A stretch of DNA of 32,063 nt from Chitinophagaceae bacterium (lineage in GTDB: Bacteria > Bacteroidota > Bacteroidia > Chitinophagales > Chitinophagaceae). The number at the start of each line of letters is the position of its first letter. Position 1 is the stretch's first letter. Below are positions 4,208 through 30,328 of the stretch, in pieces. The position numbers were made by a program, and so were the translations under genes. Where the stretch lies: NCBI GenBank assembly GCA_947451985.1, contig CANGBQ010000008.1, positions 1 through 32,063 of the forward strand, read 5' to 3'. The notes under the pieces are model-generated. The model was not told the DNA's origin. It ran no database searches and worked only from the letters and a program-made list of their open reading frames with translations.

Positions 4208-5356
4208 ATGAAAAAAAAGATTCTCGCATTAGTAATTCTATTGTTGTCTTTGGGATCTATGCAGACAACCAATGCCCAAGACTCTTCTCATTTGAGAATC
4301 TCCCTTTTGACTTGCACCCCAGGGGAAGAATTGTATTCAATCTTTGGACACAGCGCTATTCGAATCGTTGACAGCAGCAGTGTAACAGATTATGTTTTTA
4401 ATTACGGCACTTTCAATTTTGACGACGAAGGCTTTTACATTAAGTTCATGAGAGGCAAATTGCTCTACTATGTCAATGCAGAAAGATTTGACAATTTTGT
4501 ATACAATTATCAAATGGAAGGAAGGGGCATTCGAGAACAAGAGCTTGACTTTACACCTGCTGAAAAAATAACCATACAACGATCGTTGTTGGAAAATCTA
4601 AAAGAAGAAAATAAATATTATCAATATGATTTCTTTTTAGACAATTGTACTACTCGCTTAAGAGACATTCTGCTGTCTTACAAACAACCCCGACCTCAAT
4701 TGCCTGCTGCAATGCCTGCCAACACCACATTCAGACAAGCGATATATACTTATTTGAACAAAGGAGGTAAAAACTGGAGCAAACTCGGCATTGACTTGTT
4801 ACTAGGAGCCAAAACAGATAAGGTAATGAGTGTGTCGGAGCAGGCTTTTCTTCCAGATAATTTGATGCAATCCATAGACAGCTGCCGCAATTTGAAGCTA
4901 GTTGCCGGATCAAAACAATTGTATTGGATTGAAAACAAAAAGGAACCGGCCCATTGGTTTACACCTCTTGTTTTTTTTACACTGCTCTTGTTGATCATCT
5001 TTATCACTGGTTTGTCATCCAATGAAAAGGCAGTATCCGTCTTGTTCAATTTTGACAGGATGCTGTTTTTTACCACCGGATTGTTGGGCATCCTATTGCT
5101 CTTGATGTGGTTTGGAACTGACCACAGCATGACCAAAAACAATTACAACCTCATCTGGGCCCTGCCCACCCATACCATTGCTGCTTTTCTTCTGAATAAA
5201 AAAAATAAGTTTGTCACTTTGTATTTTACTGGCACGTCTATTGCCATGGGACTGTTGCTGATCAGTTGGTTTTTGATTCCCCAGACACTGAACATTGCCT
5301 TGATTCCATTTGTTATCCTATTGCTATACAGAGCCGCCTTGGCTGCTACCAAATAG
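4208..5356 (+). CDS. DUF4105 (Lnb-like N-terminal periplasmic) domain protein with signal peptide and C-terminal TM helices
   Basis: MKKKILALVILLLSLGSMQTTNAQ signal; LRISLLTCTPGEELYSIFGHSAIRI...YNYQMEGRGIREQELDFTPAEK...YQYDFFLDNCTTRLRD; the ORF-track start at 4109 overlaps guaB and is unlikely. Confidence 0.85.
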   Translation: MKKKILALVILLLSLGSMQTTNAQDSSHLRISLLTCTPGEELYSIFGHSAIRIVDSSSVTDYVFNYGTFNFDDEGFYIKFMRGKLLYYVNAERFDNFVYNYQMEGRGIREQELDFTPAEKITIQRSLLENLKEENKYYQYDFFLDNCTTRLRDILLSYKQPRPQLPAAMPANTTFRQAIYTYLNKGGKNWSKLGIDLLLGAKTDKVMSVSEQAFLPDNLMQSIDSCRNLKLVAGSKQLYWIENKKEPAHWFTPLVFFTLLLLIIFITGLSSNEKAVSVLFNFDRMLFFTTGLLGILLLLMWFGTDHSMTKNNYNLIWALPTHTIAAFLLNKKNKFVTLYFTGTSIAMGLLLISWFLIPQTLNIALIPFVILLLYRAALAATK

Positions 5357-27740: not shown

Positions 27741-29117
27741 ATGCAGGCTTGGAAAGATTATCAGTCACAAAACAAAGACAGATTTTTAAATGAATTGCTG
27801 GAACTGCTGCGCATCCCCAGCGTAAGTGCCAAAAGTGAGCACAAAGCAGATATGATCCGTTGCGCCGAGGCGTTCAAACAAAGATTGCTTGAAGCAGGTG
27901 CCGATACAGTCGAAATATATCCAACCGACGGACATCCCATTGTGTATGGAGAAAAAATAATTGACCCGAGCAAACCAACCGTATTAGTGTACGGACATTA
28001 CGATGTTCAACCGGCCGAACCTTTAGAACTATGGACCAATGGGCCTTTCGATCCGACCATTGTAGACGGAAAAATTTTCGCCAGAGGAAGCTGCGACGAC
28101 AAAGGCCAGGTATATATGCATGTAAAGGCATTGGAAACGCTGGTGCAAACCAATTCACTCTCCGGCAATATCAAATTTTGCATTGAAGGAGAAGAAGAAG
28201 TAGGGTCACCCAATCTGGGCAAGTTTGTTGCCCAACACAAAGAATTGCTCAAAGCAGATTGTGTGCTCATCAGCGACAGCGCCATGATCAGTTTGGATAC
28301 GCCGAGTATTGACATTGGGGTAAGAGGCTTGAGTTATATAGAAGTGGAAGTAACAGGACCCAATCGTGATTTGCACAGTGGTGTATATGGAGGAGCGGTA
28401 GCCAATCCGATTACCATCTTAGCAAAAATGATTGCCTCCTTACACGATGAAAACAATCACATCACCATTCCCGGATTCTATGATGACGTGGTAGTAGCCA
28501 CTCCCGATGAAAGAGCGTTAATGGCCAAAGCACCTTTCAACGAGAACGACTATGCGAAAGATTTGGGTGTACAAGCATTGTGGGGTGAAAAGGGGTATAC
28601 CACCAATGAAAGAACGGGCATCCGTCCTACGTTGGAATTGAATGGCATTTGGGGTGGTTATACCGGCGAAGGCGCTAAGACCGTATTGCCTTCAAAAGCA
28701 TACGCTAAAATTTCAGCCAGACTCGTACCGAATCAGATTTCAAAAAAAATGACCGATTTGCTGATCAATCATTTTGCCAAAATAGCACCGCCTTATGTGA
28801 CTGTAAAGGCATCTTTACACCACGGGGGAGAGCCTTACATGACCCCCATTGACAGTGTGGCATATCAAGCTGCTTCCAAAGCCATGGAAACAACCTTTGG
28901 CAAAGCCCCTATCCCTGTGAGAGGCGGCGGCAGCATTCCTATCTGTGCATTGTTTGAAAAAGAGCTGGGCATTAAGATTGTATTTATGGGATTTGGATTG
29001 GACAGCGACAACCTGCATAGTCCAAATGAAAAATATGATATTGCCAACTACTATAAAGGCATCGAGACGATTCCATATTTTCATCACTTTTTTGCAGAGA
29101 TGAACGTATCCATATGA
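27741..29117 (+). CDS. M20 family dipeptidase
   Basis: VLVYGHYDVQPAEPLELW, GRGSCDDKGQ-like ARGSCDDKGQVYMHVKAL, CIEGEEEVGSPNL, DLHSGVYGGAVANP, GGSIPICALFEKELG. Confidence 0.95.
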   Translation: MQAWKDYQSQNKDRFLNELLELLRIPSVSAKSEHKADMIRCAEAFKQRLLEAGADTVEIYPTDGHPIVYGEKIIDPSKPTVLVYGHYDVQPAEPLELWTNGPFDPTIVDGKIFARGSCDDKGQVYMHVKALETLVQTNSLSGNIKFCIEGEEEVGSPNLGKFVAQHKELLKADCVLISDSAMISLDTPSIDIGVRGLSYIEVEVTGPNRDLHSGVYGGAVANPITILAKMIASLHDENNHITIPGFYDDVVVATPDERALMAKAPFNENDYAKDLGVQALWGEKGYTTNERTGIRPTLELNGIWGGYTGEGAKTVLPSKAYAKISARLVPNQISKKMTDLLINHFAKIAPPYVTVKASLHHGGEPYMTPIDSVAYQAASKAMETTFGKAPIPVRGGGSIPICALFEKELGIKIVFMGFGLDSDNLHSPNEKYDIANYYKGIETIPYFHHFFAEMNVSI

Positions 29118-29123
29118 TTGAAT

Positions 29124-29155
29124 AAAAAAGCCTCGAATAACTCGGGGCTTTTTTT
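29124..29155 (+). terminator. Rho-independent terminator of the dipeptidase gene
   Basis: AAAAAAGCCTCGA-ATAAC-TCGGGGCTTTTTTT, 7-bp core stem with one G-U, extended by A/T tracts. Confidence 0.85.
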
Positions 29156-29219: not shown

Positions 29220-29248
29220 TTTGGCATTCCTGACGACAAATAGGTTTG
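29220..29248 (+). promoter_or_regulatory. Bacteroidota-type promoter inside the intergenic region: TTTG (29220-29223) - N17 - TAGGTTTG (29241-29248)
   Basis: Both elements match the TTTG / TAnnTTTG consensus with permitted spacing; no ORF follows. Confidence 0.6.
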
Positions 29249-29253
29249 TAAAC

Positions 29254-29512
29254 ACCAACGGTCATTTTTAGCGCTCCTACATAAGGCTATTTTTACGTCA
29301 GATTCATTCAATAATCATTGGAATAATAGGAAATCAGATATAACCGTTGTAATAGACCGTAAACTGATGCTTCTGAACCGATAGAATAAAAACTGTGTTT
29401 ATTCCTGGATGGTTGGGAATGGAAGAAGAAATTACAGAATAGCAATTGCAAAAGATTGCAAAACTGTAAAATCGTTCGAAGGCGGGGTTTAATACACCCG
29501 CCTTCTTTTTTT
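29254..29512 (+). ncRNA. Candidate ~260-nt noncoding or leader RNA of unknown family
   Basis: Promoter at 29220-29248, intrinsic terminator at 29478-29512, several internal complementary segments (e.g. CAACGGT 29256-29262 with ACCGTTG 29343-29349) and no credible ORF. Confidence 0.5.
29478..29512 (+). terminator. Strong Rho-independent terminator with no annotated gene upstream
   Basis: GAAGGCGGG-GTTTAATACA-CCCGCCTTC, 9-bp perfect stem, followed by T7. Confidence 0.9.
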
Positions 29513-29578: not shown

Positions 29579-30328
29579 ATGCATTATTTTTTATCGTCTT
29601 TACTGGCATACTTACTCACGCCATTCTATTGGTTGGCGGCATTGACCTGCTTGGGCTTCTTGGCCAAATCGGCTGAGAAAAGAAAACGATATGCCATAGC
29701 AGCACTGATGCTGTTTCTGTTGTTCAGTAACAATTGGCTGCTCATCAGTTATGCACGTTACTGGCAACAGCCAAATACCAAAGTGTCCTCCTCAAAGACA
29801 TATAGCAGTGCCATTCTATTGGGTGGTTTTGGAAGTCCCGGGGCCAGTGAAGAAGGCTATTTCAATGGAACAGCCGATCGGTTTATCCAGGCCGCCAAAC
29901 AGTACAAATTGGGAAAGATTCAGCATATCCTCATCTCTGGCGGCAATGGAAAAAATGAGGTGGCCACGTTTAATGAAGCCTCCTGGGCGAAGAAAGAATT
30001 GATGGTTTTTGGGATACCCGACAGCGCCATCCTGGTCGAAGACGCTTCTGCCAATACCGCAGACAATGCAGCCATCGCTAAAAAAATACTTGATTCTTTG
30101 AAACTTACACCACCCTACCTATTGATTACTTCTGCACACCACATGCCCAGGGCCAGTTTGCTTTTCAAAAAAGCAGGCCTGAACACCCACTCACTCTCTT
30201 GTAATTATATCTCTGGAAATGAAAAATACCGATGGGAGGATTGCATACCAAGGGCCGATGTATTATTCAACTGGAGTTTCTATTTTAAAGAAACCTTCGC
30301 GTATTGGCTTTATCGTCTCAAAGGATGA
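29579..30328 (+). CDS. YdcF family (DUF218, SanA/ElyC-like) protein
   Basis: N-terminal TM helices; SAILLGGFG...RFIQAAKQYKLGKIQHILISGGNG...EDASANTADNAAIAKKIL...LLITSAHHMPRASLLFKKAGL. Confidence 0.9.
   Translation: MHYFLSSLLAYLLTPFYWLAALTCLGFLAKSAEKRKRYAIAALMLFLLFSNNWLLISYARYWQQPNTKVSSSKTYSSAILLGGFGSPGASEEGYFNGTADRFIQAAKQYKLGKIQHILISGGNGKNEVATFNEASWAKKELMVFGIPDSAILVEDASANTADNAAIAKKILDSLKLTPPYLLITSAHHMPRASLLFKKAGLNTHSLSCNYISGNEKYRWEDCIPRADVLFNWSFYFKETFAYWLYRLKG

Follow-up and report, generated by a model that had tools for sequence, protein, structure and literature searches.

The gap between a dipeptidase gene and a YdcF-like gene in a Chitinophagaceae bacterium holds what comparison of homologous sequences strongly supports to be a free-standing non-coding RNA (ncRNA) gene, with a promoter and a terminator of its own, no open reading frame (ORF) and no tie to its neighbours. 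The predicted RNA is about 213 nt long, starting at about 29298-29302 (accurate to a few nucleotides) and ending at 29512 of the 32,063-nt stretch of DNA that was analysed, here called the window (Table 1). It belongs to a new RNA family with 62 full-length members and strong covariation, none of which is in Rfam. This undescribed Chitinophagales family probably consists of structured, trans-acting ncRNAs that would be switched by a CRP/FNR-type regulator and would present A-rich modules to a partner.

An orphan transcription unit in this gap had been proposed in a first-pass annotation of the same DNA, and its description of the letters is accurate. The 9-bp GC-rich hairpin followed by T7 is present as described, with a stem of GAAGGCGGG (29478-29486) and CCCGCCTTC (29497-29505) ahead of the T-tract (29506-29512); only tiny ORFs lie between its promoter candidate and this terminator, the longest being 27 aa, at 29409; and the ATG of the YdcF-like gene does stand past the terminator. 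The promoter candidate was also read correctly as TTTG (29220-29223), a 17-nt spacer and TAGGTTTG (29241-29248), but its interpretation as the promoter has to be revised, since it is not conserved at L074 and L075, the two homologous loci with the same gene order as the window, where the TTTG is lost and TAGGTTTG reads TAGTTTTA. When upstream regions are aligned on the RNA start, TAnnTTTR is common at one position, and the element at a fixed distance over the 62 homologues is TATTTTTA; a sigma-ABfr -7 consensus of TAnnTTTG is documented for Bacteroidetes (PMC7366714). The fixed distance between this -7 element and the RNA places the start at the position given above and not near 29254, and thus the promoter and 5' end of the ~260-nt RNA that had been proposed lie ~45 nt too far upstream.

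Table 1. Features of the ncRNA locus and its neighbours (window coordinates).
Feature	Position	Strand	Basis or remark
Dipeptidase gene, M20-type, upstream neighbour	27741-29117	+	Called from sequence; common to L074 and L075
Promoter candidate of the first-pass annotation	29220-29248	+	Not conserved; probably not the promoter of the ncRNA
CRP/FNR-type palindrome position, TGA-N6-TCATT	29253-29266	+	Full palindrome in 25 of 62 homologues
-7 promoter element TATTTTTA (TAnnTTTR)	29288-29295	+	Constant distance from the RNA in most homologues; kept in the syntenic L074 and L075
ncRNA, predicted transcript	29298-29512	+	62 homologues aligned end to end; fixed -7 distance; terminator
Helix H1, 5' strand, closing stem of three-way junction	29303-29326	+	Covariation; partner 29399-29423
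Hairpin H2, module CAG-AUAUA..GUU-loop-GAC..AAA-CUG, core 29335-29366	29327-29375	+	Covariation
Hairpin H3, loop AAUAAAAA closed by AG/CU, short form of module	29381-29396	+	Alignment covariation; base conservation over 62 copies
Helix H1, 3' strand	29399-29423	+	Covariation
Hairpin H4, module CAG-AAUA..loop AAAA..AAA-CUG, core 29435-29466	29432-29469	+	Alignment covariation; base conservation over 62 copies
Intrinsic terminator, 9-bp stem and T7	29478-29512	+	11 of 11 terminator pairs covary
YdcF-like gene, downstream neighbour	29579-30328	+	Name from the first-pass annotation; a neighbour only in L074 and L075 besides the window

The RNA is predicted to fold more stably than shuffled versions of its sequence: the segment 29302-29511 reaches -58 kcal/mol, compared with -39.1 +/- 4.2 in shuffles (z = -4.5, beating 200 of 200 shuffles), and the longer segment 29254-29512 is likewise more stable than all 200 of its shuffles (z = -3.1). 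A further hairpin, at 29124-29155, follows the dipeptidase gene on its 3' side and is flanked by an A-tract on one side and a T-tract on the other; it may thus be a bidirectional terminator.

Homologues of the RNA are found well beyond this locus. A BLASTN search of the gap against 60 relatives gave one strong match, in G012 (74% over 215 nt, terminator included), and a second, short one in G016, both in gene contexts other than that of the window; the candidate ncRNA is thus conserved in relatives and not bound to one context. A covariance model seeded with three sequences (the window and two diverged homologues) retrieved seven strong further copies and one in G024 with an initially low score, and after two rounds of refinement the full-length homologues gathered with covariance models numbered 62. 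Five matches of the early model were discarded, four of them (L052, L055, L056 and L057) covering the terminator only and the fifth (L053, in G036) being the rpmH gene for ribosomal protein L34. The hosts, many of them Bacteroidota of soil and freshwater, are Ferruginibacter, the genus of the window, together with Niabella, Niastella, Flavitalea, Flavisolibacter, Ginsengibacter and other Chitinophagales. At E < 1e-10, the model finds at least 29 copies in at least 26 of 93 Ferruginibacter genomes; across the Chitinophagaceae, the RNA is present in at least 34 of 399 genomes and at least 14 of 95 genera, and two further families of the order carry it (G250 and G186). In a sample of 393 genomes across the phylum, it was found only in the Chitinophagaceae, and the other sampled Bacteroidota classes gave no match. 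The distribution is therefore patchy across the genomes scanned; since the large scans scored few candidates per genome, the carrier counts are lower bounds, the absences are soft and the patchiness is no proof of absence. A check independent of the model, in which a sequence pattern for hairpin H2 was scanned over 84,980 species genomes, returned 18 loci, and every one is a full-length model match at 125-178 bits. Those with informative names are all Chitinophagaceae (Ferruginibacter, Niabella, Niastella, Flavitalea, Flavisolibacter, Ginsengibacter and Chitinophagaceae MAGs), and five are MAGs labelled Bacteroidota only.

The homologues share one consensus fold, in which a long closing helix (H1) leads into a three-way junction with hairpins H2 and H3 and is followed by hairpin H4 and the terminator. 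Compensatory changes were seen in 22 of 68 pairs in the first alignment, of the window and the early homologues. With 38 sequences, changes on both sides occur in 56 of 60 pairs, and 87.4% of the cells are paired, compared with 67.5% in shuffles and 37-48% with slid structures; none of 500 shuffles reaches the alignment in any measure. Because these 38 sequences had been fitted to the structure, the test was repeated on a structure-naive MAFFT alignment of 32 homologues with the minimum free energy (MFE) fold of the window alone. Here, too, both sides change in 54 of 69 pairs, 74.8% are paired as against 31-51% with slid structures, and 0 of 500 shuffles match this, so that the fold finds support in both alignments of relatives. 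By mutual information, the structural pairs rank top, and the model contains nearly all of the column pairs that covary most strongly; the same search of the alignment gave no pseudoknot beyond the nested model.

Neither a small protein nor the neighbouring genes account for this conservation. Within the RNA, the longest ORF has a median length of 17.5 aa, as against 22 aa in shuffles; these ORFs differ in position between species, and the 27-aa ORF of the window is not conserved in homologues. The products of the flanking genes form 77 clusters, among which no Pfam family recurs, and the four combinations of neighbour strands occur 16, 15, 15 and 13 times, i.e. at random. One may argue that the RNA acts in cis on the YdcF-like gene, be it as a leader or attenuator, which the first-pass annotation had listed among its alternatives, or as a riboswitch, given that in the window, L074 and L075 this gene lies on the same strand and begins 64-122 nt past the RNA. 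However, the window and these two close relatives are the only loci with the dipeptidase and YdcF-like pair around the RNA. In the other homologues the next gene is a different one, varies between clades and is encoded on the opposite strand in roughly one copy in two, and almost all copies have a terminator of their own. We therefore reject a leader or attenuator role for the family as a whole and give it almost no credence for the YdcF-like gene itself. A link to mobile elements or defence, considered in view of the patchiness and the extra copies in some genomes, was dropped, as the neighbours show no recurring family. Taken with the homologues and the covariation, the absence of coding potential bears out the central proposal of the first-pass annotation, a stand-alone and undescribed ncRNA.

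No known RNA family was recognised at the locus. Against Rfam 15, nothing scored above the gathering threshold in the whole window or in 18 loci with diverse homologues. The matches of a permissive search of the locus are weak and lie mostly over the two terminators, and BSnc120, Phe_leader and greA, which match terminator hairpins, fall far below gathering and were set aside. The literature searched, which covered few subscription journals, contains no description of the present RNA. The most obvious comparison is with 6S RNA (RF00013) and 6S-Flavo (RF01685), which are likewise free-standing, structured and of similar length. 6S RNA forms a single long hairpin whose large, open central bubble mimics an open promoter; it binds RNA polymerase and templates product RNAs. 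The present RNA could be an unrecognised 6S RNA of the Chitinophagaceae that binds RNA polymerase. H1 would then be its closing stem, H2 its terminal stem and H3 the small hairpin on the bubble's 3' side, a topology that resembles 6S loosely. In addition, 6S RNA seems to be missing here: the window locus has no 6S match even at E up to 5, RF00013 has none in 38 relatives, and RF01685 is above its cut-off in 0 of 60 genomes, with no match in the genome of the window. Nevertheless, the RNA is branched, with a three-way junction in place of the open bubble and a separate extra hairpin, H4. It occurs twice in some genomes and is undetected in most, it has a class II activator site, and its conserved internal loops are A-rich with no promoter-like duplex. 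The 6S-type alternative raised in the first-pass annotation is thus very unlikely on architecture as well as on covariance-model matches. In another family of the order, a sub-threshold 6S-Flavo match (L039, G053:C56:29553-29701; 38 bits, E 4.7e-4) may be a real but diverged 6S RNA.

Other described RNAs of the Bacteroidota are comparable in part. FopS of Bacteroides has a single-stranded 5' stretch and a terminator hairpin and represses susC-like mRNAs (PMC11697453). FopS and GibS are, like the present RNA, stand-alone Bacteroidota sRNAs that may be multicopy and have an intrinsic terminator (PMC11697453), whereas the present RNA is fully structured, with four helices before the terminator and no such seed. 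Rfp18 is a conserved, structured, stand-alone sRNA of Flavobacterium, also without an Rfam entry (PMC9723704); its host differs, and the present RNA is set apart from it by taxon.

The upstream regions point to the way in which the RNA may be controlled. A perfect TGA-N6-TCA palindrome occurs at one fixed distance in 25 of the 62 copies (mean in shuffles 1.0, maximum 6), 26-27 nt upstream of the -7 element wherever the latter could be located, and many other copies without the full palindrome keep a GTCATT half. The palindrome is centred near -41.5 from the likely start, and -41.5 is the class II position of activators of the CRP/FNR family. Thus, a regulator of this family probably switches the RNA on, and CRP/FNR-type control is supported for much of the RNA family by this promoter layout. 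For the copy in the window such control is uncertain, because its palindrome is incomplete, with TCATT (29262-29266) retained on the right and CAC in place of the left half. One HTH_Crp_2 protein was detected in the genome of the window (57 aa, cut by a contig edge; L185 1-172, G000:C79). Judged by eye, the Glu and Arg with which FNR-type proteins contact TGA cores are both present in its recognition helix.

A composite promoter pattern (TGACN4RTCATTN21-22TAnnTTTR) was then scanned over the 93 Ferruginibacter genomes and gave 41 matches (L137-L166) compared with 7 for the reversed pattern, so that the 41 are a pattern list of which about 7 may be chance. The RNA copies themselves account for several matches. 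Genes beside the matches include FixS, for maturation of the cbb3 oxidase, twice, a COX1/CcoN-type oxidase subunit, universal stress proteins, four DUF892-type proteins, a PfkB kinase, a lactamase-B/rhodanese protein, two baeRF proteins, a pyridoxamine oxidase-like protein and an FtsH-like protease. In the genome of the window, the single match lies upstream of a Usp-like gene, whose product matches Pfam weakly (E = 0.09), relatives matching better. We infer that these genes form a candidate CRP/FNR-type regulon of Ferruginibacter for oxygen limitation or stress, and the RNA is most likely a trans-acting member of such a low-oxygen or stress regulon. A CRP/FNR-family regulator would switch it on under low oxygen or a related stress, together with the cbb3 oxidase, universal stress and DUF892 genes, and it would then act in trans and not in cis on the next gene.

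What the RNA may offer to a partner is suggested by its unpaired bases. Those conserved over the 62 copies are almost all A and lie in three similar modules: AG-AnAUA..AAA-CU in H2, AG-AAUAAAAA-CU in H3 and AG-AAUA..AAA-CU in H4. H2 and H4 also have similar inner loops, and the unpaired A338, A340, U341, A342 and A361-363 of H2 are 90-100% conserved. Repeated similar hairpin modules within one RNA are likewise found in protein-sequestering RNAs of the CsrB/RsmZ type, and the repetition here suggests several binding sites for one partner. In contrast to the GGA in the loops of those RNAs, the present repeat is an A-rich internal or terminal loop (AG-AAUA../AAA-CU), and no GGA is conserved in the loops of the 62 homologues. 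The modules of H2 and H4 and the short form in H3 would thus be presented to a protein or another partner, which may thereby be titrated or held on a scaffold, as the repetition of conserved loops would suggest.

The main rival to this reading is an antisense-type sRNA similar to FnrS, the FNR-activated sRNA of enterobacteria, which is stand-alone, has a terminator, is co-regulated with respiratory genes and pairs with its targets with the help of Hfq. A CRP/FNR-activated RNA of this type would pair with mRNAs through the A-rich loops or the junction and change their translation or stability, the fold serving mainly for stability. The promoter logic is the same as that of FnrS, the present RNA is also stand-alone and intergenic, with a terminator, a CRP/FNR-family site in the activating position and putative respiratory co-regulation, and it does have conserved unpaired stretches. 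On the other hand, at 213 nt it is the larger of the two, it is heavily structured, with four helices ahead of the terminator, and it has no detected sequence relation to FnrS. Moreover, almost its full length keeps its structure despite deep sequence divergence, which is unusual for seed pairing, the conserved loops consist almost entirely of A and would make a poor seed, and Hfq was not found in 90 Ferruginibacter genomes, that of the window included, which removes the usual sRNA chaperone. The antisense reading is therefore possible yet doubtful, and the deep structural constraint together with the three A-rich modules favours protein binding, as decoy or scaffold, over simple seed pairing. 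Only tentatively may the decoy or scaffold reading be extended to a global riboregulator of the oxygen-limitation and stress response in Chitinophagales without detectable Hfq, acting through the three A-rich repeats as a multivalent decoy or scaffold for an RNA-binding protein and kept in two to four copies in some lineages.

To our knowledge, Hfq is often missing in Bacteroidota and the mechanisms of their sRNAs are little known. Should a protein bind the A-rich modules, the RNA would serve as bait for a post-transcriptional regulator of this phylum. The promoter layout, by linking the RNA to a probable CRP/FNR-type regulon (cbb3 oxidase, universal stress), gives a concrete condition for its induction, and culturable hosts (Ferruginibacter paludis, Niabella drilacis, Niastella vici and Ginsengibacter hankyongi) make the RNA testable.

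Some genomes carry more than one copy. G250, from another family of the order, has three full copies and a fourth, partial match (4260-4478 and 1593-1810 of L109, C219; 3215-3432 and 4516-4620 of L110, C261). Between them lie VIT/rubrerythrin-like, CoA-disulphide reductase/rhodanese and P-type ATPase genes, of a kind that one would expect to share a regulon with the RNA. At L124 (G645:C2), two near-identical copies (166-374 and 1501-1710) stand 1.3 kb apart, which is evidence of local duplication. A strongly diverged second copy in Ferruginibacter paludis (G062; L161, 1550-1754), with another at G016:C54:8129-8333, scores 30.8 bits at L161 and was revealed by a promoter-pattern match overlying it. 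A perfect CRP/FNR-type promoter immediately precedes this diverged copy, a gene for an FtsH-like protease lies downstream of it, and its H4 seems reduced.
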